Assembly (NCBI GenBank): GCA_904397205.1
Contig: CAJFOO010000036.1
Location: 1 to 33,697 of the forward strand
DNA: 33,697 nucleotides
Source of the DNA: an uncultured Clostridia bacterium
Lineage (GTDB): Bacteria > Bacillota > Clostridia > Oscillospirales > Acutalibacteraceae
Direction of reading: 5' to 3'
The position numbers and the translations under genes are program-made. Positions within the stretch are counted from its first letter, which is position 1, and every line of letters begins with the position of its first letter. Below the pieces are notes generated by a model. The model was not told the DNA's origin and searched no databases. It saw nothing but the letters and a program-made list of their open reading frames with translations. Of this stretch, positions 5,425 through 33,697 are shown in pieces.

Positions 5425-5467
5425 TAAGATACACATTCCGGGAGTTAGGAAAACCCTCCCCCTTGTT

Positions 5468-5588
5468 CTTCTTTCATCCAGACTGTGACTGTCGGCTTCG
5501 GGTTCACACCGAATCATGCCTTGCGGCTCGTGGGCTCAAGGGGATCCCCTTATACCACCGGTAGGGACTTGCACCCTGCCCTGAAGAA
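5468..5588 (-). promoter_or_regulatory. FMN riboswitch (RFN element)
   Basis: CTTCAGGGCAGGGTGCAAGTCCCTACCGGTGGTA...GAGCCCACGAGC...GATTCGGTGTGAACCCGAAGCCGACAGTCACAGTCTGGATGAAAGAAG matches the conserved RFN core. Confidence 0.97.
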
Positions 5589-5605
5589 ACTTTTATATGG
5601 TTTCT

Positions 5606-11655: not shown

Positions 11656-11755
11656 AGCAGAGTAGGATCCTGTGCGTTAAGTGCCGTTTGAACGGGGAGT
11701 TGTCAGGCGGACGAAAAGGAATCTTGCGGTACAGGATCCGCATCCCGCTGCTGCA
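11656..11755 (+). promoter_or_regulatory. Tetrahydrofolate (THF) riboswitch, folT leader
   Basis: GCAGAGTAGGATCCTGTGCGTTAAGTGCC...AACGGGGAGTTGTC...GACGAAAAGGAATCTTGCGGTACAGGATCCGCATCCCGCTGCTGC; perfect GATCCTGT/ACAGGATC stem and conserved GUGCGUUAAGUG. Confidence 0.92.
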
Positions 11756-11842: not shown

Positions 11843-12505
11843 ATGGAACACAAGCAAACTTCTCCCGAACCTGTCCCGCAAACTGCCCCACGGCCCAAAG
11901 CGTCGGGCTATTTGTTCCCCTGGACTCCCGCCTATTGGCGGGCAGCCGCCGTGCAGGGGAAGGATTTGAAAGTCATGGTCGCGGTATCCATGATGGTGGC
12001 CATGTCAGTGGTGCTCACCTGCGTCAGCGATATCCAAATCCCTCTGGGCAACAATCTGCGCATCCGGTTTGACTTCCTGGCCAACGCGGTAGCCGGCATG
12101 ATCGGCGGGCCGATTGTTTCCCTGGGCTATGGGCTCGTGGCGGATCTTGTAGCATATTTTATCCATCCCTTCGGCGCATACTTCCCAGGGTATACGCTGT
12201 CCTCTATGCTGGGAGCCTTCGTTTACGCCCTGTTCTTTTACCGCAGCCGGATTACGATTGTGCGGGTAGCTTTGTGCAAGCTGTCCGTCAATCTGTTCAT
12301 CAACGTACTGCTGGGCTCTGTGTGGAGTGCCGTCCAGTTCAGTAAAGGCTATTGGTACTATCTGGGAAACAGTATAATCAAAAACAGTATTATGCTCCCG
12401 ATCGAAATTGCTCTGCTGGTCTTGGTGCTGGGGCTTCTTGTCCCCATCATCAGCCGCTTTGGCCTGATTCCCAAACCATCCAAAAAAATCATCCCAATTT
12501 GGTAA
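11843..12505 (+). CDS. folT: Folate-family ECF transporter S component
   Basis: Multi-TM ECF-S type (LRIRFDFLANAVAGMIGGPIVSLGYGLVADLVAYFIHPFGAYFPGYTLS), located behind a THF riboswitch. Confidence 0.93.
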   Translation: MEHKQTSPEPVPQTAPRPKASGYLFPWTPAYWRAAAVQGKDLKVMVAVSMMVAMSVVLTCVSDIQIPLGNNLRIRFDFLANAVAGMIGGPIVSLGYGLVADLVAYFIHPFGAYFPGYTLSSMLGAFVYALFFYRSRITIVRVALCKLSVNLFINVLLGSVWSAVQFSKGYWYYLGNSIIKNSIMLPIEIALLVLVLGLLVPIISRFGLIPKPSKKIIPIW

Positions 12506-12638: not shown

Positions 12639-14633
12639 TTACATTCGGGTAATCGCCCAAACGATAATGAATATCAAAGCACTGATGATACCCAGGCCAA
12701 ACAACAGCAGGCTGAATGCGATACTGTTGGGAATCATCCTTCGTTTCTTGGGCTGGGAATAAGTGGCAAAATCGGGATCCAGCGGCGGGGAGAAGCGTTC
12801 TTTCCTATCATAGAACAGCACCCGCTGCGCCCCTGCTATCGTTACATCCACCACAGAAGCCACCGTGCGTGCGGCAAATGCTCCAATAAACGGGAACACT
12901 TGCAGCAAAGCAGGACGGTACACCTTCTCTTCAATGTTCAGCCACTTCGGCCAAGCATTGAGGTATACGCTGCGGCCTTCGGCATTCTTCTGGATCAGGC
13001 ACATGCGCACAATCAGGAAGTATAAGATAATGCCGATCGAAATCGACGCGACAGCACCTTTGAGGTTCGTCCAAGAGAAATAGGCCACCGCATGCGCGGG
13101 ATCATGTCCATGCAGGAACGACTGCGATACTCCGGCAATTTCGTCCATCGTAAATCCCGGGATAATCCCCAGGACCGGCAAGACAGCCGCCGGGATAATC
13201 AGGCACGCGGCCGTCATCCAATTCATATACTTTTTCTTGGCGTCGTACTTGGCCTGCAGTGTGGGATCGGTATTCTTTTCCACAAAAACTGCTATAAACA
13301 GTTTAATCATATAAGCACAGGTCAAGCCGCCCGCAAAGGTAAACAGCGCCTCGATGATCTTGAACAGCACCGCCTCGCCTGTTAAGGTGGGGAACATCGC
13401 GATATATTCCACAATGCTTTCGTGCAGCAGGGTCTTGCTGACATAGCCGCTCCAAGCCGGCACACCCATCACCGTGAGCGCGCCCATGGCAAAGATCACC
13501 GCAAACAGCGGTTTTTTGCGGCCAAACCCGCGGATTTTGTTCAAATCAAAGTTGCCCAGGTTCATAAAGATAACGCCCGCGCACATGAACAGTACCAGCT
13601 TGACCAGGGAGTGGTTCACAATGTGCAGGACGGTACCATGCACTGCCAAGGCATTGTGTTCGCCTAAAACCCCCTGCATCCCTACGCCAACCAGGATGAA
13701 CCCGATCTGCGACATGGACGAATACGCCAGTGTGCGCTTGAGGTTGTTGGAAAGCACCCCAAGCATACCGCCGGTGAGCATCCCCAATATACCCAGAATC
13801 AGGACAACCATGCCCCAGTTGTAATCGTGCAGGAAAACATTCGCGCTGATCACCAGCACCCCGAAAATGCCGCCCTTCGACAGCATACCGGACAGCAATG
13901 CCGTGGCAGGTGCAGGCGCTGCAAGATATGTCTCCGGCAGCCAGGTGTGCAGCGGGTACATGCTCGCTTTGGATCCAAAACCAACCAGGATAAGCAGGCC
14001 GGCAACAAACAACGTCGCATAGCTTGCGCCGCTATTGGCCGCGGCATCCAGCAGCTGATCCATCTCCAGTGTGCCGAGGTTTACCTGCAGCATGAAAATG
14101 CCCATCAGCGTAGCCAAACCGCCGAACACCGCATATCCCAGGTAGCCATTGGATGCATAAATGGCCTTTGGGTTTTCCTCCTGGATGACCATCACATACG
14201 ACGCAAAAGACATGATTTCGAAGAAAATAAATGTCGTATACAGGTTCGATGACAGGAATACCCCCATGGTTGCTGCGAGCGTCCATTGCATGAACATATA
14301 ATACCGGTTGCGGTTGCGCGCGCCGGTGGAGAAATATTCCCTCGACTGCACCGTCGTCATAAACCACAGGAAAGAACAGAGGACCGCCATAACCATGCGG
14401 AACCCGTCCGCCTCAAAATGCAGGCCAAACCCGGCAAACCAATTCCAGAAAAATTCCCCGGAGGTAAAGCACAGCCCTACCGCCATGAAAAACTCCGCAG
14501 CCGTTGCGGCAATGGCAAAATAATCCCTTGCGGTCTTGCTTTTTCTCCCTATCAAATAGCCGGCAAATCCCGACACAAAGGGGAAAAACACCAGGATTAG
14601 CAGCAATACATTCGTGCTTTCCAGAAGAACCAC
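12639..14633 (-). CDS. Proton-conducting antiporter-type membrane subunit 4 (NuoL/HyfB-like, with C-terminal extension)
   Basis: FIFFEIMSFASYVMV (TM5 Glu), GFGSKASMYPLHTWLPETYLAAPAPATALLSG (TM7 Lys), complex I ND5/MrpA-D family pattern. Confidence 0.93.
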   Translation of the reverse strand: MVLLESTNVLLLILVFFPFVSGFAGYLIGRKSKTARDYFAIAATAAEFFMAVGLCFTSGEFFWNWFAGFGLHFEADGFRMVMAVLCSFLWFMTTVQSREYFSTGARNRNRYYMFMQWTLAATMGVFLSSNLYTTFIFFEIMSFASYVMVIQEENPKAIYASNGYLGYAVFGGLATLMGIFMLQVNLGTLEMDQLLDAAANSGASYATLFVAGLLILVGFGSKASMYPLHTWLPETYLAAPAPATALLSGMLSKGGIFGVLVISANVFLHDYNWGMVVLILGILGMLTGGMLGVLSNNLKRTLAYSSMSQIGFILVGVGMQGVLGEHNALAVHGTVLHIVNHSLVKLVLFMCAGVIFMNLGNFDLNKIRGFGRKKPLFAVIFAMGALTVMGVPAWSGYVSKTLLHESIVEYIAMFPTLTGEAVLFKIIEALFTFAGGLTCAYMIKLFIAVFVEKNTDPTLQAKYDAKKKYMNWMTAACLIIPAAVLPVLGIIPGFTMDEIAGVSQSFLHGHDPAHAVAYFSWTNLKGAVASISIGIILYFLIVRMCLIQKNAEGRSVYLNAWPKWLNIEEKVYRPALLQVFPFIGAFAARTVASVVDVTIAGAQRVLFYDRKERFSPPLDPDFATYSQPKKRRMIPNSIAFSLLLFGLGIISALIFIIVWAITRM

Positions 14634-14654
14634 CTCCTCACAATCAATCCCAAT

Positions 14655-16130
14655 TTAGAATACCCCCGCTGCAATCGAACCGAATACGTCAAAAATGGGG
14701 GATGGATAGACGCCAATCCCAATCGATACCGCCGCCAGGCCAATCAGCGGCAGGGTCATCAGCAGGTTGGGATCCTTTACATCCTTGTTGAGCGTTTTGA
14801 TATCCAGCTCCTTGCGCGGGAAATACGCCTTGATCAGGATGCTGCCCAGATACAGCGTCGTGAGCAGAGTGGAAATGATTAACGCCCCGATTCCCACATA
14901 CGCCAGAGGGTTCCCGCTTTCCACCGCGGCCGTAGCAATGTTCCATTTGCTGCCAAAGCCCATCAGCGGCGGGATACCCATCAGCCCCAGGGAAGTGATG
15001 GTAAAGCAGACCATGGTGATCGGCATCGAATAGCCGAACCCCTCAATCTGATCTACATATTCGCGGCCCGTCTTATAAATAATCGCGCCCGCTACGAAGA
15101 ACAGGGTGATCTTCAGCACCGAGTGGAACAGCATATGGGTTAAGCCGCCCACCATGCCCGCCGGCGACATCAGCATCAGGCTGAACAGCATATACGACAG
15201 GTTACTCACCGTAGAATATGCCAGCCGCCGTTTCAAGTGGGTACTGCGCAGCGCCATAGCCGATCCAAACACAATCGTGATAATGGTTGCCACCATAGCT
15301 ACCGTCTGCGCCCAGGATCCCCGCAGGAAATCCATGCCAAAGTTATAATATGTCACACGAGTAACGGCAAAGATACCCGCATTGACTACCGCCACCGCAT
15401 GCAGCAGCGCCGAAACCGGGGTGGGCGCAACGCCTGCACTGGGCAGCCAGGAATAAAACGGGAAAATGGAAGCCTTGACGCCAAAGCCGAAGAATGCCAG
15501 GATGAAGCCGACCAATACCAGGTGTTCCATCCCGCTGACCTTGGACATATCCAGGATACCGCCGTAGACAAAATCCAGCGATACCCCGTAATACAGCAGC
15601 AGCATGATGGCGATAAACCCAAACGACGCGCCGCCAATCGAGAACATCACATATTTTTTGCCGGCCGAGCAGGCCTTGGCGTCCATGGCATGCATCACCA
15701 GCGGCAGCGTTGCCACGGTGAGCAGCTCGTAAAACAGGTACATGGTGAGCAGGTTCGCCGAAAACGCAATCCCCATCACCACGCCGAACGACATGGTAAA
15801 GAAAGAGAAAAATTTGTTTTCTTTCCCCTCATGCTTCATGTACTCAAAGGAATAGAAGGTAGACACAGCCCATAGGATGGAAACTATCATGCCGAATACG
15901 GTGGATAACCCATCAACCCGAAAGGAAATACTGAGGGTATCCGTAAAACGGATCAGCGTAAACTCCTGATGGGGTACTGCAAAGATAAAGATGATTGACA
16001 AAATCATGTTGGCCACTACAATGCTGGCAACATAGATCTGCCGGGCCATCCGCTCTTTAAAATTGGCAATCAGCAATCCAATGCCGCCCACGATGGGCAG
16101 CAGGACCGGGATACACAGCAGAAAAGACAT
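14655..16130 (-). CDS. Proton-conducting antiporter-type membrane subunit 3 (NuoM/MrpD-like)
   Basis: MYLFYELLTVATLPLV, FGFGVKASIFPFYSWLPSAGVAPTPVSALLHAV. Confidence 0.93.
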   Translation of the reverse strand: MSFLLCIPVLLPIVGGIGLLIANFKERMARQIYVASIVVANMILSIIFIFAVPHQEFTLIRFTDTLSISFRVDGLSTVFGMIVSILWAVSTFYSFEYMKHEGKENKFFSFFTMSFGVVMGIAFSANLLTMYLFYELLTVATLPLVMHAMDAKACSAGKKYVMFSIGGASFGFIAIMLLLYYGVSLDFVYGGILDMSKVSGMEHLVLVGFILAFFGFGVKASIFPFYSWLPSAGVAPTPVSALLHAVAVVNAGIFAVTRVTYYNFGMDFLRGSWAQTVAMVATIITIVFGSAMALRSTHLKRRLAYSTVSNLSYMLFSLMLMSPAGMVGGLTHMLFHSVLKITLFFVAGAIIYKTGREYVDQIEGFGYSMPITMVCFTITSLGLMGIPPLMGFGSKWNIATAAVESGNPLAYVGIGALIISTLLTTLYLGSILIKAYFPRKELDIKTLNKDVKDPNLLMTLPLIGLAAVSIGIGVYPSPIFDVFGSIAAGVF

Positions 16131-16169
16131 TAGAATGGTTTCCCCCCTCGTTTCAGAGTTTGGTTTTGA

Positions 16170-17639
16170 TTACAAAATCGCGCTGGAAATACTATCAATC
16201 GCCGCCGTAAGCCCATTGGGGAACATTCCCAGGCCTACGACAAACACCGTCATGATAATCAAAGGAACCGTCATCCATGGGCGGGGCTCCTTTTTTTCCA
16301 ATTTGGAATAGTCAAACCCTTCGCCTGGGAAGAAAGCATCCCGGACCAGGGGGAGCAGATACCCTGCCGTGAGCAGTGCGCTCACCAGAAGGACTGCCGC
16401 CCCTACATAGCCTAACGCCCCAAATTCCGGCGTAATGGCGCCTGTTGCCAGGAACCATTTGCTGAAAAACCCGCTGGTCGGCGGAATCCCCACCAGCGAC
16501 AGGGACGACAGCGTAAAGCACCACATGACAATCGGCATTTGCTTGCCTATTCCGCGCAGCTCGTGCGCATACGTCTTGTGGGTCATGAAAATGATGGACC
16601 CCACACTCAGGAACAGGATATTCTTGGCCACCGCGTGGAACACCACCTGCAGCAGCGCGCCCATCAGCCCTTCCGGCGTAAACAGGAACAGGCCGAACAG
16701 CACATAGGAAACCTGGCTGACGGTAGAATATGCCATCCGTTTTTTCAGCAGCTTTTCCTTATACGCCAGCATGGACCCCATAAATACCGTAGCAATCGCC
16801 AGGATCAGCAGCGTGTACTGCACCCAGGTGCCGCGCAGGAAATCCGGGCCTACGATGTAGTAGCTCACGCGGATTATCGCCAGCACGCCGCCTTTGGTAA
16901 TGATGCCGGAGAGCACAGCCGAAGCCGGCGCCGGCGCCACCGGGTGGGCTGTGGGAAGCCACGCGTGCAGGGGAAGCATACCCGCTTTACACCCAAACCC
17001 GAGCATCATCAGGAAGTATACCACCAAAATGGTGTTTTCATGGCCTGCCACCAGGCCCATGTCCAGCACACCGCCGGGTGTAAAGGTAATGCCCGTGCTG
17101 TAGCGCGAGAGGAAAAAGAATCCAAACAAGCCCATGCCCGCGCCAAATGTCGAGTACCCAAGGTACTTCAGGCCGGCCATAATGGCTTCCCGGGTGCGCG
17201 AATGGATAACCAACGGAACCGTGATAAGGGTCATCATTTCGTAGAGCATGTACAAAGTCATTAAGTTCCCCGAATAGGACAACCCAATCAGGATACCCAA
17301 CGTCATGGTATAAAACCCGCAGAACCGCTCTTCCGCACCCTCATGCTGGATATATTCAAAGGCATAAAATGCCACCAACGCCCACACGGAAGCGATTAGG
17401 CAGGAGAAAAAGCGTGCCATTCCGTCCATATAGAATGTGATGGACAGATTTTCCGTGATGGTCCACACCGATACCCCAACATCCGGCAAAAATGCCAAAC
17501 CATAGACCAAAAGTGCGTTGACGACCACCACAACGGACACATACACCCGCCGGATTTTCCGGTCACGCAGACGGAATACCGGGATACCCGCCAGCAGGGG
17601 GAATAAGATTGGGATTAATAACAGGACACCCACCGTCAA
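16170..17639 (-). CDS. Proton-conducting antiporter-type membrane subunit 2 (MrpD/NuoM-like)
   Basis: LYMLYEMMTLITVPLV, GFGCKAGMLPLHAWLPTAHPVAPAPASAVLSG. Confidence 0.93.
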   Translation of the reverse strand: MTVGVLLLIPILFPLLAGIPVFRLRDRKIRRVYVSVVVVVNALLVYGLAFLPDVGVSVWTITENLSITFYMDGMARFFSCLIASVWALVAFYAFEYIQHEGAEERFCGFYTMTLGILIGLSYSGNLMTLYMLYEMMTLITVPLVIHSRTREAIMAGLKYLGYSTFGAGMGLFGFFFLSRYSTGITFTPGGVLDMGLVAGHENTILVVYFLMMLGFGCKAGMLPLHAWLPTAHPVAPAPASAVLSGIITKGGVLAIIRVSYYIVGPDFLRGTWVQYTLLILAIATVFMGSMLAYKEKLLKKRMAYSTVSQVSYVLFGLFLFTPEGLMGALLQVVFHAVAKNILFLSVGSIIFMTHKTYAHELRGIGKQMPIVMWCFTLSSLSLVGIPPTSGFFSKWFLATGAITPEFGALGYVGAAVLLVSALLTAGYLLPLVRDAFFPGEGFDYSKLEKKEPRPWMTVPLIIMTVFVVGLGMFPNGLTAAIDSISSAIL

Positions 17640-17679
17640 ACCACCTCACTATTTTTCAATTCACAATTTTTGAAACCGA

Positions 17680-19284
17680 TCATAACAGGTGGAGCCCTGT
17701 CCGAATCATATCCATAATCGGTCCAAACGCAACACCCAAAGCCACATTACAGGCAAGGAAGACCACCATGGATACCACAAAGCTGACCGTCAGACGCGGG
17801 GCTTCGTGCGCTTCTTCCAAAACAGCCGCTTCCCCAGCCACTAATTCTGCAGCCGGTTCTCCATGCGCCTCCTGTGCGGCATGGCCTTCCTGGGAAGCCC
17901 CATGGGCGTCGCCGTGAGAAGGTTCTTGACTTTTCTTTGGCGTCCAAAGATTCACTATCATAGGTAAATAATACAAGGCATTGAGCACGGTACTCACTGC
18001 CAAAGCAGCCAGCACCACTCCCAGCCGGAACCAGTCGCTGCCCAGCGCGGCTTCCGAGAAGTAGAGCTTTGGTGCAAAACCTGCCAGCAGGGGGATGCCA
18101 ATCATCGAAAGGCCCCCTACGGTAAAGCCGATACCGGCCAGCTTGTTTTTCAGCCCGGAACCCTTGAGGGCTTTCATATCATATTGGTGTCCCGCGGTTT
18201 CCACCAAAGCGCCCGCCGAGCAGAACAGCATTGGCTTGGTAAATGCATGGGCCAGCAGGTGCAGGATTGCAGCCGCCATGCCAATCTCGGAATTGAGGCC
18301 AATCCCCATGAAGATATAGCCAATCTGCGAAACCGAAGAATAGGCGACCATCCGCTTGATGTGCCGTTCCTTCAGGGCCTTGACCGATCCGACAATCATT
18401 CCCGCAATGCCGAACACCAGTAAAAAGTCGCTGATATGCAGCTCCTGCAAAAGTTCCGGCGTAAACACGCGGTAAATAATCTTAATCAACAGAATAATAT
18501 ATGCCTTGAGCACCAACCCCGACAAAATGGAACTGGCCGAAGTGGTTGCAGAACCGTGCGCTCCCGGCAGCCAGGAATGGAAGGGGAACAGGGCGCTCTT
18601 GACTGCGGTGGACAGGGCCATCATGCCAATGGTGACTGTCAGCGGCACGGCATATTTTCCAGTGGCGGCCAGAGCCAGGATAGACTCCTGGAGATCCTCC
18701 ATGAGCAGATGGCCGGTGATACCATACAGCATGGCCATACCGAACAGGAACAGTCCCGAACCCAGCAGGCTCATGATCAGATACCGGATAGTAGCCACCG
18801 TGGTTTCGCCGGACTCCTTTACCATAACAATGGCGCATGCAGCAATGGTATTGATTTCAATAAACACATACCCGGTGAACAAGTCGTTGGTATAAATCAT
18901 CGAAATCATGGAGCACAGCAGCAGGTTGGTCATCAGGAAATACAGATACTGCTTCTGCGGACGGATATCCTTATATAAGGTATCCACACCGCCCAGGTTG
19001 CACAGCGCCATTACTAAGCAGAAGCACGACGCCAGCAGCGCCTCCAGCGGACCGCCCCGCAGTTCATTGCCGAACGGGGCTGGAAAATGCCCCATCGTAT
19101 AGACAAAATTTTCATTCGTAATCAGCAGCTCTACCAGCAGGGCGATATTCATTCCCAGAGAACCCAGGATGACAAGCATATTGAGCTTTTGCGCCAGCCA
19201 GCCTTTGCGTACAAACGGCGTGACGATGCCTCCTATCAGGCAAAGCATGATGCTGAAAAACGGGAAGTTATAAACAAATGGCAT
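17680..19284 (-). CDS. Proton-conducting antiporter-type membrane subunit 1 (NuoN/MrpD-like) with His/Glu/Ala-rich loop
   Basis: GYVFIEINTIAACAIVMVKE, STAVKSALFPFHSWLPGAHGSATTSASSILSG; insertion SQEPSHGDAHGASQEGHAAQEAHGEPAAELVAGEAAVLEEAHE. Confidence 0.93.
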   Translation of the reverse strand: MPFVYNFPFFSIMLCLIGGIVTPFVRKGWLAQKLNMLVILGSLGMNIALLVELLITNENFVYTMGHFPAPFGNELRGGPLEALLASCFCLVMALCNLGGVDTLYKDIRPQKQYLYFLMTNLLLCSMISMIYTNDLFTGYVFIEINTIAACAIVMVKESGETTVATIRYLIMSLLGSGLFLFGMAMLYGITGHLLMEDLQESILALAATGKYAVPLTVTIGMMALSTAVKSALFPFHSWLPGAHGSATTSASSILSGLVLKAYIILLIKIIYRVFTPELLQELHISDFLLVFGIAGMIVGSVKALKERHIKRMVAYSSVSQIGYIFMGIGLNSEIGMAAAILHLLAHAFTKPMLFCSAGALVETAGHQYDMKALKGSGLKNKLAGIGFTVGGLSMIGIPLLAGFAPKLYFSEAALGSDWFRLGVVLAALAVSTVLNALYYLPMIVNLWTPKKSQEPSHGDAHGASQEGHAAQEAHGEPAAELVAGEAAVLEEAHEAPRLTVSFVVSMVVFLACNVALGVAFGPIMDMIRTGLHLL

Positions 19285-19673
19285 CAGGTCTTAACCTCCT
19301 TCTTCACCAGAAGAAGGATTTCATCCAAATTCACGGTATGATATTTTTTATACAGCCGCTGCACCAAGGCAAGAGAAACTGCAGTAACGCTGACGGATAC
19401 TACAATGCCAGTGAGCATCAGGCCAGTAGGAAGGGGGTTAATGTATGTTTCTGTGTTGGCGGGGATGCTGGGGTCGCCCATAATGGGGGCCATCCGCCCG
19501 AATACATACCCACGGGACGCCACGAAGAGATAGATGGCCGTATCCATAATGTTCAGACCGATAATCTTTTTGACCAGGTTTTTATGCAGCAACAGTCCCA
19601 TAAATCCAATCACAAAGAGAATTATCGCGGCAATCTCATAATAATGCTGGGTGATAAATTGCAGAAAACTCAT
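19284..19673 (-). CDS. mrpC: Na+/H+ antiporter subunit C (MrpC/MnhC, NuoK-like)
   Basis: LHKNLVKKIIGLNIMDTAIYLFVAS; LMLTGIVVSVSVTAVSLALVQRLYKKYHT. Confidence 0.92.
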   Translation of the reverse strand: MSFLQFITQHYYEIAAIILFVIGFMGLLLHKNLVKKIIGLNIMDTAIYLFVASRGYVFGRMAPIMGDPSIPANTETYINPLPTGLMLTGIVVSVSVTAVSLALVQRLYKKYHTVNLDEILLLVKKEVKT

Positions 19674-20657
19674 CTATATCTCCCCTCTCGTATACAAAGA
19701 ATAGAAGCCATACATGGTACAGGCAACAATCATACCCACACAGACGTTCAGCGGAAGGATAAACCCGCCGCTCAGGATAGCACCAGGCGTGCCTAGCGGC
19801 ATCAGGGAAGGGATGTGGTTTGCACCAGTATAGAACGAATAGATCTTCATGCAAGCGTAAGCCAGCAGCGCACCGCTCGTCACGCCGGTGAACAATTTAA
19901 AATTAAAGAACCGCTTCACGCTTTCCGGCCCGTACGCCGTGGCGTACAGGATTAACCCGCCGCCCATCATGGCTCCGCCGGAAAACCCGCCGCCGGGAGA
20001 AATATGGCCGTTGAGCACCACATAAATACCAAACAGCAAAATAATCGGGATTAAAATCAGCGATACGCACTTCATCACGATATTGGGGCTTTCGCGGGAG
20101 AAGCGGGCTTCTGCCGCAAGCTGCCGGCTTTCTTCACTGACATCCCCTTTGCCGCCTCCTTTACCGCCTCCATTGCCGCCATCCTTCTTGAGCAGGATCA
20201 GCACGCTCATGACAGCGGTAAACAGCACGCTGGATTCACCCAGGGTATCGAATGCACGGTAGTCCAAAATGATGCCGGCTACCAGGTTGGTTGCACCGGT
20301 ATCCTCAAGGCCATCCTCAATGTATTTTTGAGTCACCTCATTGTTGGTTGGCACATCCACCTCGCCAAACGGAGGCATCTGGCTGCAAACAAACAGGAGC
20401 AGGCTCACCAGAATGATCCCGATCCCCACGCAGGCCACGATATAAAACCGCCGGAACCCGCGCAGCCGCCGGATAGTTTCCCCGGTCTCGCCTACTGTAG
20501 GCTGCACATCGGTGTTTTTACGGGATTCCCACACCTCGGGATGGATTTCCTGCTGGGTATCCCGCTGTACCTCTTCCCCGTTTACCCAGGCAGAAAGTCT
20601 GCCCCAAAGGGAATGGGATTCTTTAGAATGGTTTTGATTCTGATTTTGTCTATTCAT
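19674..20657 (-). CDS. Fused MbhE-MrpB (MnhB-domain) subunit with ~80-aa hydrophilic N-terminal extension
   Basis: TNLVAGIILDYRAFDTLGESSVLFTAVMSVLIL (MbhE/MrpA C-terminus) then Gly-rich linker then GIYVVLNGHISPGGGFSGGAMMGGG (MrpB). Confidence 0.92.
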   Translation of the reverse strand: MNRQNQNQNHSKESHSLWGRLSAWVNGEEVQRDTQQEIHPEVWESRKNTDVQPTVGETGETIRRLRGFRRFYIVACVGIGIILVSLLLFVCSQMPPFGEVDVPTNNEVTQKYIEDGLEDTGATNLVAGIILDYRAFDTLGESSVLFTAVMSVLILLKKDGGNGGGKGGGKGDVSEESRQLAAEARFSRESPNIVMKCVSLILIPIILLFGIYVVLNGHISPGGGFSGGAMMGGGLILYATAYGPESVKRFFNFKLFTGVTSGALLAYACMKIYSFYTGANHIPSLMPLGTPGAILSGGFILPLNVCVGMIVACTMYGFYSLYTRGEI

Positions 20658-20940
20658 CCTTCTTCCCCTTTGCCGAGCGCTTTTTCAAGAGATGCTTGCG
20701 GTCTGTTTTCAAAGCGTCTATTTTTTTCAATGTCAGCACCAACAGCACGGTGGTAACCCCGGCCCCAACAGCCGCTTCCGTACCGGCCAAATCGGGCGCT
20801 TCCAAAATAATCCATATCAGCGACATGATTAAACTGTACGACATGAATATCAGCACAGTTGCCAGCAGATTTTTCGTTATGGTGGAGGTGATTGCACAGG
20901 CAATCAAAAACCCCAGCAGAATCATCTCAAGCGCCATCAT
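20650..20940 (-). CDS. MbhD-like / DUF4040 subunit (split MrpA C-terminal piece)
   Basis: ITKNLLATVLIFMSYSLIMSLIWIILEAPDLAGTEAAVGAGVTTVLLVLTLKK. Confidence 0.9.
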   Translation of the reverse strand: MMALEMILLGFLIACAITSTITKNLLATVLIFMSYSLIMSLIWIILEAPDLAGTEAAVGAGVTTVLLVLTLKKIDALKTDRKHLLKKRSAKGKKDE

Positions 20941-21262
20941 CGTTTATCACCTCCGCCTCAAGCTCGTCGGCGTCTTCCGGTTCCTGCGAACAAATTTCCG
21001 CACTGGCCAGCAGATGGCTGCAAAGCGGGCTGGCCGCCCAGAAAAAGCCGAGTATCAGGATGATTTTCAGTGTGGCAAATGTAAACCCGGTCAAAATCAT
21101 CGCGCCGATTAAACAAAGCAACAGCCCCATGGTGTCGCTCTGCGCGGCGATGTGCATCCGGTTGAGCACATACCGGAACCGGAATACCCCAAATGCCGCC
21201 ACGGCAAAGATAAACAACCCCACAACGATAAATACCGCTGCAATAATAAACCGCACCATCAT
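20927..21262 (-). CDS. mrpG: Monovalent cation/H+ antiporter subunit G
   Basis: FAVAAFGVFRFRYVLNRMHIAAQSDTMGLLLCLIGAMI. Confidence 0.93.
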   Translation of the reverse strand: MMVRFIIAAVFIVVGLFIFAVAAFGVFRFRYVLNRMHIAAQSDTMGLLLCLIGAMILTGFTFATLKIILILGFFWAASPLCSHLLASAEICSQEPEDADELEAEVINDDGA

Positions 21263-21621
21263 TCTTTTGACGCCTCCTCCTCATGACTGCGATTCTCCCG
21301 TAAAACGGCCCCTTCGCGATCAAGTCTCGACTTATGGTCGATCCGGTGACGGGTAATGATAATCTTAGAGAGAACCGCTACCGCTAAAAAGCTGAGCATG
21401 GAGTAAATGAGACCTACGTCCACCAAAAACTCCTCTCCTAAAAATACGGCCAAGAGACACACAAATACATTGGTCTTAGTGCCAATCATATTCGCGGCCA
21501 CAATCCGGTCGGTATAGCGGGGGCCCATCACCGCCCGCACCAGGCACGCACAGATGATAATGGCCAGCGCAATCATACAGCAAATCAAAAAGATGCTGGA
21601 ATATTCCGTTTTTGGGAACAT
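21259..21621 (-). CDS. mrpF: Monovalent cation/H+ antiporter subunit F
   Basis: LVRAVMGPRYTDRIVAANMIGTKTNVFVCLLAVFLGEEFLVDVGLIYSMLSFLAVAVLSK. Confidence 0.93.
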   Translation of the reverse strand: MFPKTEYSSIFLICCMIALAIIICACLVRAVMGPRYTDRIVAANMIGTKTNVFVCLLAVFLGEEFLVDVGLIYSMLSFLAVAVLSKIIITRHRIDHKSRLDREGAVLRENRSHEEEASKE

Positions 21622-22115
21622 TACTTTTCTCCCTCCTTGTTGCCGGATGCCGCCTTTTCGATTTTCTCCAGGCGCTGCACAAAGCAGGAATCTTCAATGC
21701 CGTCGGTCATGCTTTTATCCAGAGCATGTACGCACAAGATATCGTCGTCCACCGAGACGGTAATCGTCCCCGGCGTAATCGTGATAGAATTGGCCAAAAT
21801 GGTTTTTGCCGCCTCGCCTTTGAGCTTGGTGCGGAAATATACCAGCTCCGGCTCGATTTTGCTTTTGGGGTTGAGGACAATCTTGATGACCGAATAGTTG
21901 GCCTTGACGATTTCCCACAGCACCACCAGCGCATAGTGCAGCAGCCGGCCAAAATTGCGCAGGATTTTCAAATCCTTGCGGGGATGGTACCCCATCACCT
22001 TCCAGATAAACAGGGAAAGGGCCCCCGCAATCACCAGGCCGAACAGGGCGATTTCCAGCGTAAGCTTTCCGTTAAAGACAACCCAAATCCAGAATAAACA
22101 AACAAAAAACAGCAT
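21621..22115 (-). CDS. mrpE: Na+/H+ antiporter subunit E
   Basis: KANYSVIKIVLNPKSKIEPELVYFRTKLKGEAAKTILANSITITPGTITVSVDDDILCVHALDKS. Confidence 0.93.
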   Translation of the reverse strand: MLFFVCLFWIWVVFNGKLTLEIALFGLVIAGALSLFIWKVMGYHPRKDLKILRNFGRLLHYALVVLWEIVKANYSVIKIVLNPKSKIEPELVYFRTKLKGEAAKTILANSITITPGTITVSVDDDILCVHALDKSMTDGIEDSCFVQRLEKIEKAASGNKEGEK

Positions 22116-22181
22116 GTTTCCTCTTTTCCTTTCCAGGGATATCCCATCCGGGCTATTCCTTACAGTAAATTCCAACTCCGC

Positions 22182-22370
22182 TTAATGGGCCCCGGGCACA
22201 GCGGCAGCATTCCCTGCGGCAACGTGCTGCTGCACCGAAGCGCCGTGTCCTGCGTCCTCTTCCCCATGGGAAGCGCCTTCCCCGCCAATGTTGGCGGAAA
22301 CTAAAAACAGGATCCCGACAATCGCTCCCAAGGCCACCACGACGCTGCAAGCATTGATGAGCTTCCTCAT
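22182..22370 (-). CDS. 62-aa single-TM peptide with His-rich C-terminal tail, first gene of the antiporter operon
   Basis: MRKLINACSVVVALGAIVGILFLVSANIGGEGASHGEEDAGHGASVQQHVAAGNAAAVPGAH; RBS GGGGGAGGATGCATC-ATG. Confidence 0.75.
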   Translation of the reverse strand: MRKLINACSVVVALGAIVGILFLVSANIGGEGASHGEEDAGHGASVQQHVAAGNAAAVPGAH

Positions 22371-31868: not shown

Positions 31869-31898
31869 TTGACGCGCACTACGGAAATATGGTATGCT
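31869..31898 (+). promoter_or_regulatory. Sigma-A type promoter of the nuoE-like operon
   Basis: TTGACG-N18-TATGCT. Confidence 0.6.
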
Positions 31899-31950
31899 AA
31901 AAGCCATATATCCCGCGTCTGAGGATGCGCCAAGAAAGGGAGCGTTGCGC

Positions 31951-32442
31951 ATGACCGAAACCAAATCCGAGCTCACCCCCGAGCTTTTGCAGCACATCGA
32001 AGCGATTATCACCAAATACCGGTACGACCAAAGCCGCCTGCTGGAGATCCTGCTGGAAATCCAGCAGGCCGTGCCGCTGCATTACCTTCCCCGCCCGGCA
32101 GCTTACGCCGTAGCCGAACGCCTGCACCTGCCCCCCACCCAGGTATTCGACGTCATTTCCTTTTTTTCCGCGCTGCACGAGTCCCCCCGCGCCAAATATC
32201 CCATCCAGGTCTGCTCCAGCATCGCCTGCCAGATAAGCCATGGCGGCGGCCTGCTCCCCATGCTCCAGGAGATCCTCGGCATAGAGCCCGGCCGTGCCAC
32301 TTACGACGGCCGCTTCTGTCTGGAAGAAGTCCCCTGCTTCGGCGCATGCGACCGCGCCCCGGCCATCCGCATCCACCAGACCGTCTACGGTCCCATCACC
32401 CGCCGCGAACAGGTGGAAGAAATCCTGCGCGGCCTCGAATAA
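31951..32442 (+). CDS. NuoE/HydC-like thioredoxin-fold [2Fe-2S] NAD(P)H-oxidoreductase subunit
   Basis: C-x4-C (CSSIAC) and C-x3-C (CFGAC) ligands, AERLHLPPTQVFDVISFFSALH. Confidence 0.93.
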   Translation: MTETKSELTPELLQHIEAIITKYRYDQSRLLEILLEIQQAVPLHYLPRPAAYAVAERLHLPPTQVFDVISFFSALHESPRAKYPIQVCSSIACQISHGGGLLPMLQEILGIEPGRATYDGRFCLEEVPCFGACDRAPAIRIHQTVYGPITRREQVEEILRGLE

Positions 32443-32454
32443 GGAGGGAGCCCC

Positions 32455-33697
32455 ATGCCACAACATACCGTCCGTTTCATCACCCGGAATTTCGGCCGCT
32501 ACGATACGGGTTCTCTGGCATCGTACGAATCCATCGGCGGGTTTTCCGCCCTGAAAAAAGCCGTCTGCCTCCCCCGCGAGGACATCGTCGAAATCATCAG
32601 CCAGGCGCACGTCAAGGGACGGGGCGGGGCCGGCTACGATATGGGCCGCAAGTGGCGGCAGGCGCGCGAGGTGCCCGGCCCGGACAAGGTCATTGTCTGC
32701 AACGCCGACGAGGGCGAACCCGGCACCTTCAAAGACCGCGCCCTGCTCGAAAACGATCCCTTCCTGGTGGTGGAGGCCATGATCCTGGCCGGCTACACCA
32801 TGGAGGCCGAAAACGGCTACATCTACCTGCGCGAAGAATATTCCCATCTGCGCCCCCTCCTGCTGCACGCCATCTCCCAGGTACAGCAAAAGGGGTACCT
32901 CGGGGAGAATATCCTGGGCAAAGGCTTCTCCTACCATCTGCACCTGTATTCCGGTGCAGGCGCATATGTATGCGGCGAAGGCACCGCCCTGGTCGAATCC
33001 ATGGCCGGAAAGGGCGGGCGGCCCCGTCTCAAGCCCCCGTTTATCAAGCAGTGCGGCCTGTTCGGACGCCCCACCTGTCTGAACAACGTCGAAAGCCTGT
33101 GCCTGGCTCCCCATCTGCTGTGCGACGAGGAAAAACGCTACCAGACCTGGGGCACCGGGAATTCTGTCGGCTCCAAGCTCATCAGCGTCTCGGGCAACGT
33201 GCGATCCCCCGGCGTGTTTGAAATCCCGTTCGGCGTGACCTTACGGGAGATTATCTACGATCTGGCCGGCGGCGTGCCGGAGGACCGTTCCATCCGGCTG
33301 ATCCAGCTCGGCGGGGCGTCCGGCCGGATTGCCGGACCGGCCATCCTCGATACTCCCTATACCTACGAGGATTTGGAAAAAGCCGGGGTAGGGGTCGGCT
33401 CAGGCGCTGTCCTGGTCGTGGATGAGCGCACCTCCGTCCTGGATTTTCTGCGCATCACCCAGCGATTTTTCTCACACGAAAGCTGCGGGCAGTGTACCCC
33501 CTGCCGGGAAGGCAACAGCCATATGCAGATTTTACTTGAAACGGTGGCGCGCGGGGAGCACAGCGACACCACCCTCGACACCATGGACCGGCTGTGTATG
33601 ATCATGCAGAACGCTTCGCTGTGCGGATTGGGCGAAACCGCACAGAATGCCTTTGTCTCGGCACGGGAATGGTTCCCGGAAGTCTTTGCCCCCGCCC
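32455..33697 (+). CDS. NuoF/HydB-like flavoprotein subunit (FMN/NADH/[4Fe-4S]), truncated by window end
   Basis: My translation: KGRGGAGYDMGRKW, CNADEGEPGTFKDR, YVCGEGTALVESMAGKGGRPRLKPP, SCGQCTPCREGN; no stop before window end, so missing from the ORF track. Confidence 0.93.
   Translation, partial: MPQHTVRFITRNFGRYDTGSLASYESIGGFSALKKAVCLPREDIVEIISQAHVKGRGGAGYDMGRKWRQAREVPGPDKVIVCNADEGEPGTFKDRALLENDPFLVVEAMILAGYTMEAENGYIYLREEYSHLRPLLLHAISQVQQKGYLGENILGKGFSYHLHLYSGAGAYVCGEGTALVESMAGKGGRPRLKPPFIKQCGLFGRPTCLNNVESLCLAPHLLCDEEKRYQTWGTGNSVGSKLISVSGNVRSPGVFEIPFGVTLREIIYDLAGGVPEDRSIRLIQLGGASGRIAGPAILDTPYTYEDLEKAGVGVGSGAVLVVDERTSVLDFLRITQRFFSHESCGQCTPCREGNSHMQILLETVARGEHSDTTLDTMDRLCMIMQNASLCGLGETAQNAFVSAREWFPEVFAPA

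Follow-up and report, generated by a model that had tools for sequence, protein, structure and literature searches.

Positions 1 to 33,697 of contig CAJFOO010000036.1 (assembly GCA_904397205.1), from an uncultured Clostridia bacterium of the family Acutalibacteraceae, constitute the window analysed here. Its minus strand carries, from position 22370 to 12639, eleven close-packed open reading frames (ORFs) that form one operon. On balance, we favour the view that this operon encodes a stand-alone Mrp-type cation/proton antiporter, assembled as one complex and endowed with more proton paths per cation than canonical Mrp. The lack of NuoH, flanks almost always free of hydrogenase and complex I genes and four intact sets of channel residues under selection make a stand-alone multi-channel antiporter the best reading of these genes. 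An earlier note on this DNA, made from the sequence alone, had already put forward a multi-channel antiporter; that proposal now has to be qualified as regards the cation path, which is not canonical.

The genes are transcribed in the order 62-amino-acid (aa) peptide, mrpE, mrpF, mrpG, mbhD, an mbhE-mrpB fusion, mrpC and four antiporter-like genes (A, B, C and D), with intergenic spacings of −14 to +63 nt. Every ORF except that of the 62-aa peptide is named by Pfam above curated cut-offs. A, B, C and D each match Proton_antipo_M at 179–182 bits (cut-off 21.5) and are the only genes of this family in the whole genome (a 1.43-Mb assembly, 80% complete). ORF and Pfam analyses bore out the gene content and transcription order described in the earlier note, including the correspondence with the MbhA-H order of the membrane-bound hydrogenase (MBH), in which MbhD is likewise separate. 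We scanned 84,980 species' genomes and took the best 80 loci. Among the loci examined, with the window and the loci of its order included, 49 carry all four genes, A-B-C-D; most of these loci come from Lachnospiraceae, Oscillospiraceae and other Clostridia. The operon order is kept in each of the five congeners, in two of which D is truncated by a contig end, and also in two further families of the same order. Conservation on this scale excludes a chance arrangement, and the four-subunit architecture is an established variant and a real system. Its distribution is sporadic, since the fused mbhE-mrpB marker occurs in about 3% of the sampled genomes of the class; the operon was not found in the sampled genomes of 19 other genera of the window's family. 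Hosts of the family include named and apparently cultured species: Hungatella hathewayi, Butyricicoccus pullicaecorum, Clostridium homopropionicum and Peptoclostridium acidaminophilum.

Each large subunit was assigned by phylogeny, a check that the earlier note had suggested, using MrpA, MrpD, MbhH, MbsH, NuoL/M/N, HyfB/D/F and, in addition, the subunits encoded by an Ensifer complex I operon as references; the tree searches were quick and without bootstrap, and some references form long branches. Subunit A (534 aa; 17680..19284, minus strand, as are all operon coordinates below; PF00361) clusters on the MrpD/MbhH/NuoN side of the tree, and its best PDB matches are MbsH and MbhH. Subunit D (664 aa; 12639..14633; PF00361) forms its own clade close to MrpA-N/HyfB/NuoL/NuoM. 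Its AlphaFold2 model (pLDDT 88) has a lateral helix (residues 567–606) and a C-terminal anchor transmembrane (TM) helix (638–663), and the best full-length fold matches of this model are MrpA first and NuoL second. Subunits B (489 aa; 16170..17639) and C (491 aa; 14655..16130), both of a middle type and matching PF00361 and PF00662, belong to sister clades (SH-aLRT 98–100) and share 41% identity. Tree and fold comparisons together bear out only in part the earlier note's statement that a single MbhH/MrpD subunit had been replaced by four paralogues: A is indeed of the MbhH/MrpD type, whereas D is of the MrpA-N/NuoL type and B and C are insertions.

The tree indicates that B and C arose by a single duplication of the middle subunit, which is single in Clostridium and Peptoclostridium. 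Both duplicates have been retained in the 49 operons with four intact genes, where they form two well-supported sister clades. When loci of other classes were added, two older middle types became apparent: the beta type is used in operons linked to Rnf, and the gamma type comprises B and C together with the antiporter-like subunit that comes first in the Ensifer complex I. The window operon has two gamma-type subunits, B and C, and no beta-type one. At four other loci (L153, L158, L159 and L160) the arrays are of the form A-gamma-beta-D and represent a second, independent four-subunit form; judging from these relationships, four-subunit arrays originated at least twice.

Apart from LysTM8 of C, discussed below, the residues expected to carry protons are conserved in all four subunits. 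The TM5 Glu and TM7 Lys motifs that the earlier note had singled out are present in each of them and essentially invariant over the 49 operons: GluTM5, LysTM7 and LysTM12 were found in 49/49 A and 49/49 B sequences, as well as in 49/49 C sequences (with one Arg at TM12) and 49/49 D sequences (with one alignment gap at TM5). A, B and D all keep LysTM8 without exception. For the cation path, we judged the residues proposed for Mrp in PMC7419157. The coupling Glu (Glu706 of MrpA), which corresponds to Glu55 of MbhD, is kept in 48/48 sequences, and the exit residues (D792/E796 of MrpA), which correspond to Asp137/Glu141 of MbhE-MrpB, in 49/49. MrpC retains Asp44 at the position of MBH Asp37 (D in 48/49). 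Taken with the substitutions in MrpF and MrpC described below, the alignments indicate that the proton paths are strictly selected and that the cation path is altered in a family-specific manner.

As the earlier note had stated, no part of a hydrogenase or complex I belongs to the operon. NuoH (PF00146) is absent from the window genome and from seven genomes of the same order that carry the operon, while control genomes were positive. Absences from the window assembly, with its completeness of 80%, would by themselves carry little weight; six of these eight genomes are at least 90% complete. In 42 further genomes carrying relatives of the operon, NuoH occurs in three. A complex I or hydrogenase hidden elsewhere in the window genome was rejected on the grounds that the 80%-complete assembly contains no NuoH. 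Likewise, the flanks of 48 of the 49 four-subunit loci contain no hydrogenase or complex I gene. The sole exception is the window itself, where NuoE and NuoF genes lie 9.5 kb from the operon on the opposite strand (31894-33697, plus strand): the NuoF-like gene lies at the window edge behind a NuoE-type 2Fe-2S gene, and the two likely belong to a soluble NADH-linked hydrogenase or formate dehydrogenase.

By analogy with Mrp and MBH, the operon products would assemble into a single linear membrane complex of the Mrp/MBH antiporter-module superfamily, exchanging H+ for Na+ or K+ without redox chemistry. MrpE, MrpF, MrpG, MbhD, MbhE-B and MrpC would together form the cation path, A would adjoin MrpC as MrpD does, and D would cap the far end by means of its lateral helix, in the manner of MrpA-N and NuoL. 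B and C would be the proton-conducting units placed between A and D. Steiner and Sazanov (PMC7419157) proposed that one proton passes through each antiporter-like subunit per Na+, two units giving 2 H+/Na+, in a scheme that can be extended; applied to four subunits, their model yields ~4 H+ per cation. With about one proton per cycle for each antiporter-like subunit, the H+/cation ratio would therefore probably be ~4:1, compared with ~2:1 for canonical Mrp. As a thermodynamic calculation only, at −60 mV and with no pH difference, a 2:1 exchanger would sustain a ~10-fold Na+ gradient and a 4:1 exchanger a ~1000-fold one. Such a complex might allow a weakly energised anaerobe to hold a steep Na+ gradient or, operating in the reverse direction, gear a Na+ gradient to a proton gradient.

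Several observations weigh against this reading. The LysTM8 of subunit C, present in 37 of the 49 orthologues, has been replaced by Asn in the other 12, including that of the window (Asn250); the Glu and Lys motifs cited in the earlier note hold, and the correction concerns this further position. The lateral helix of D measures 40 residues in the four-subunit form and 43 in a three-subunit relative; it is not longer in the larger array, which calls for caution about the array model, and we rejected its length as a gauge of array size. Moreover, PMC9568556 finds the stoichiometry of Mrp unproven and the sodium-carrying subunit disputed, and the model of Li et al., as far as it is cited there, assigns to MrpD the transfer of sodium and not of protons. 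The lost Lys, the unlengthened helix and the unproven stoichiometry of Mrp itself would also fit an Mrp antiporter in which the two additional subunits play a structural or regulatory role and the ratio remains at ~2 H+ per cation. We hold this to be unlikely, as TM5 Glu, TM7 Lys and TM12 Lys are essentially invariant in B and C and a structural filler would not need them. Another possibility is that the four large subunits are alternatives, used in different two-unit complexes (e.g., A+D and B+C) built on one small-subunit module. The single promoter, the shared small subunits, the sister relationship of B and C and the two-unit constitution of known Mrp are compatible with it. However, neither B nor C, both belonging to the middle type, has a lateral helix or an MrpD-type partner role, and the three-unit relatives in Clostridium, Peptoclostridium and Syntrophomonadaceae have retained a single middle subunit beside one A and one D, which makes such alternative assemblies very improbable. 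Still more of the contrary evidence concerns the cation path. In alignments with PDB sequences, Asn44 of MrpF replaces Asp35 of the A. flavithermus protein, a residue described as invariably conserved in Mrp; Asn occupies this position throughout the family, in 44/44 four-subunit orthologues and also in 12/12 Rnf-linked forms. The MrpC ligands His37 and His40 have disappeared across the family, giving way to Thr/Ser/Ala and Tyr/Phe, respectively (Thr and Tyr48 in the window); at the Tyr48 position, Y or F occurs in 49/49 sequences, and Mrp and MBH carry His there according to MBS/MBH/Mrp alignments. These changes imply that the cation, its affinity or even cation transport itself could differ. 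They speak for the idea that the cation path has been rebuilt for an ion other than Na+ (K+, Ca2+ or another), and one Mrp has been reported to move Ca2+ (PMC5703873). Against this, the coupling Glu of MbhD and the exit Asp/Glu of MbhE are invariant and MrpC keeps the Asp found in MBH, and we consider a switch of this kind quite unlikely. We also considered the ATP synthase c subunit as a guide to the coupling ion and dropped it, the window genus having a V/A-type K subunit that could not be assigned. Several operon-bearing genomes (loci L117, L119, L120, L121 and L122) encode F-type c subunits with two carboxylates or with Gln plus Glu-Thr, motifs that are presumably of the Na+ type.

The remaining alternative involves a redox partner encoded elsewhere. 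The complex could be an ion-pumping arm docked on Rnf, so that electrons passing from ferredoxin to NAD+ would drive the four proton channels in a way reminiscent of complex I. The earlier note had named a hydrogenase/ferredoxin module consistently fused to the operon in relatives as a finding that would refute its view and had suggested a survey of neighbourhoods. This survey uncovered Rnf-linked operons in a sister lineage, which the note had missed, so that the refuting finding applies to that lineage and not to the window clade, where Rnf lies near the operon at only two of 49 loci, in divergent orientation both times. Of 40 loci retrieved from other classes of the phylum, 12, belonging to several families (L135-L139, L141, L145-L148, L150 and L151), carry rnfCDGEAB-mrpEFG-mbhD-mbhE-mrpB-mrpC-A-B-D-apbE as one co-directional 17-gene cluster; the 40 loci were picked by their Rnf-linked type of middle subunit, so that 12/40 is not a frequency for the family. 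Rnf also lies directly upstream in five Syntrophomonadaceae/Clostridium-type loci of the first survey (L099, L105, L107, L108 and L109, confirmed by Pfam in L109), and RnfC, RnfD and RnfE precede a four-subunit version in L156. Two loci (L101:4732-13638 and L140:3077-12687) even combine rnfCDGEAB with two antiporter-like subunits only, without Mrp small subunits, an arrangement that suggests a direct Rnf-antiporter partnership, as it is hard to explain otherwise; the RnfB of L101 has only 98 aa. Rnf is present in the window genome and in all eight operon-bearing genomes of its order. One related locus of the four-subunit set has apbE downstream.

Nevertheless, rnfCDGEAB is absent around the window operon, including directly upstream of it, and the middle subunit of the Rnf-linked forms is of another subtype than B and C. 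We rejected genome-wide co-occurrence as proof of coupling because Rnf is not enriched, being present in 38/42 genomes with the family and in 26/32 genomes of the same order not found to carry the operon. Four of the 42 genomes show no Rnf in their assemblies (whose completeness was not reported), and as the four-subunit operon was found in each of these, it can probably do without Rnf. We therefore regard an Rnf-driven arm as rather unlikely for the window clade and retain the stand-alone multi-channel antiporter as the preferred reading.

The family also varies in the number of its antiporter-like subunits. Arrays of three are carried by Clostridium species, by the megaplasmid of Peptoclostridium acidaminophilum, by Syntrophomonadaceae and by other Bacillota, and five stand in a row (A, A, A, B and D; L043:3991-12052) in a Defluviitaleaceae metagenome-assembled genome (MAG), with intact motifs where checked. 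In both Mrp and complex I, the number of antiporter-like subunits may set the protons moved per cycle, and this family offers a natural redox-free series with three, four and five subunits in which the ratio could be measured against the count. It suggests a route by which gut Clostridia devoid of complex I may keep large Na+ gradients at low membrane potential. A separate lead comes from the 17-gene Rnf-Mrp cluster of the sister lineages, which links two main energy-coupling modules of anaerobes in a way that has apparently not been described. A bolder and more tentative proposition is that the Mrp-type exchangers of anaerobes change gear through subunit number (three, four or five besides the known two), the H+:cation ratio equalling the subunit count, and, at the same time, that the array of the sister lineage is physically coupled to Rnf as a redox-driven pump distinct from both classical Rnf and complex I; we see this combination as possible, though doubtful. 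In the open-access literature, to which our search was confined (subscription papers lay outside it), we found no paper that describes the stand-alone family with four subunits, the residues typical of it or the rnf-mrp operon.

Some individual loci deserve mention. A four-subunit version in archaeal Methanosarcinales (L097) ends beside a convergent A-type ATP synthase operon. A Treponema MAG (L084) has a three-subunit version (A, B and D) nested in Clostridia clades, which its position in the tree suggests was probably acquired by transfer with loss of C. At L142, L143 and L144, a lone middle-type antiporter-like gene without Mrp subunits lies a few kb downstream of NuoF/HydA/FdhA-type genes.

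The small genes of the operon are compactly arranged. mrpE (21621..22115; MNHE, PF01899, 2.8e-33) probably starts at the ATG at 22115 and not at the TTG at 22175, to judge from its sequence and from relatives of ~155 aa. It is followed by mrpF (21259..21621; MrpF_PhaF, PF04066), mrpG (20927..21262; PhaG_MnhG, PF03334, 3.9e-19) and mbhD (20650..20940; PF13244, 5.7e-20), which represents the first part of the MrpA C-terminal domain and matches MBH subunit D (6cfw_D). The mbhE-mrpB fusion (19674..20657) combines PF20501 with PF04039 (MnhB), and mrpC (19284..19673; Oxidored_q2, PF00420) is NuoK-like. The first ORF (22182..22370) encodes a 62-aa peptide with a single TM helix, a His-rich tail and no Pfam match. 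Relatives occur in the congeners, and as far as found it is restricted to the genus; as we found no counterpart upstream of mrpE in other genera, we rejected it as a general eighth subunit. In Peptoclostridium, an annotated hypothetical ORF of 47 aa precedes mrpE. Subunit A has a His/Asp/Glu-rich insertion before its last TM helix which, like the His-rich tail of the 62-aa peptide, is largely confined to the window genus; a role of these His-rich stretches in metal or pH sensing is possible.

Upstream of the operon, a TG-extended promoter is predicted on the minus strand at 22613-22585 (TTGACA-17-CATAAT, an 11/12 match to the consensus). It is aligned and conserved in the five congeners; the leader downstream of it is not. 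Within this leader, ahead of the first gene, there is a hairpin that resembles a terminator and has a T-tract (about 22565-22525, minus strand); it was not seen in the congeners. Control of the leader by a Na+ or Li+ riboswitch was rejected, as Rfam gave no match there and the hairpin is not conserved. The operon ends at an intrinsic terminator on the minus strand (about 12635-12590), a hairpin with a T-tract (fold z = −3.5). The A-run on its opposite side and the facing gene that ends at 12505 fit a terminator shared with this convergent gene, an S-component of an energy-coupling factor (ECF) transporter, in agreement with the bidirectional terminator described in the earlier note. A tetrahydrofolate (THF) riboswitch (11656-11752, plus strand) precedes this S-component gene, which is probably for folate. 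Farther away, a flavin mononucleotide (FMN) riboswitch (5462-5592, minus strand) lies beside a riboflavin biosynthesis cluster.

Among known systems, MBH and MBS (6cfw and 6u8y) are the closest solved relatives of subunit A and MrpC, and they share with the window the MbhA-H order, separate MbhD and MbhE and the Asp in MrpC. However, the window lacks their NuoH-like, hydrogenase and FeS subunits, and MBH has one antiporter-like subunit and MBS two (6u8y chains H and X); without NuoH, the operon does not encode an MBH. Four or five pumping subunits are known from the rhizobial green complex I, the Nitrospira 2M complex I and the complex_I_3 of Manganitrophaceae (PMC9040806). Those are full enzymes with redox modules, whereas the window array has none; the clade of B and C also takes in the first antiporter-like subunit encoded by the Ensifer complex I operon (L114, probably green complex I). 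Rnf accompanies the sister form with three subunits, in the same direction, in 12 loci; it is not adjacent in the window and hardly ever in four-subunit loci. More than two antiporter-like genes had been noticed earlier in irregular (group 3) Mrp clusters, as in the window operon: cyanobacterial ones with two mrpD (PMC5703873) and that of Ca. Nitrospira alkalitolerans, to which two NuoM/NuoL-like genes are added (PMC7784846). These reports give no account of the E-F-G-d-eb-c-A-B-C-D operon of anaerobic Clostridia, of the residues that are invariant in it, of how its subunits were duplicated or of the sister forms linked to Rnf. With Mrp groups 1 and 2 (CPA3; Bacillus, Anoxybacillus, Dietzia), the window shares homologues of MrpB, C, E, F and G in the cluster without a redox part, an MrpD-like and an MrpA-N-like subunit, and the coupling and exit carboxylates (Glu706, Asp792 and Glu796). 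It differs in that MrpA is one chain in those groups and is represented in the window by separate genes for D, MbhD and MbhE-MrpB, with MbhE fused to MrpB, and in having four antiporter-like subunits instead of two, the extra pair in the middle of the order E-F-G-d-eb-c-A-B-C-D. In addition, MrpF Asp35 and MrpC His37/His40 of groups 1 and 2 are Asn, Thr/Ser/Ala and Tyr/Phe in the window family. The sequence comparison thus points to a system that would work like Mrp, yet falls outside the canonical Mrp of groups 1 and 2 by its gene structure and the residues of its cation path.

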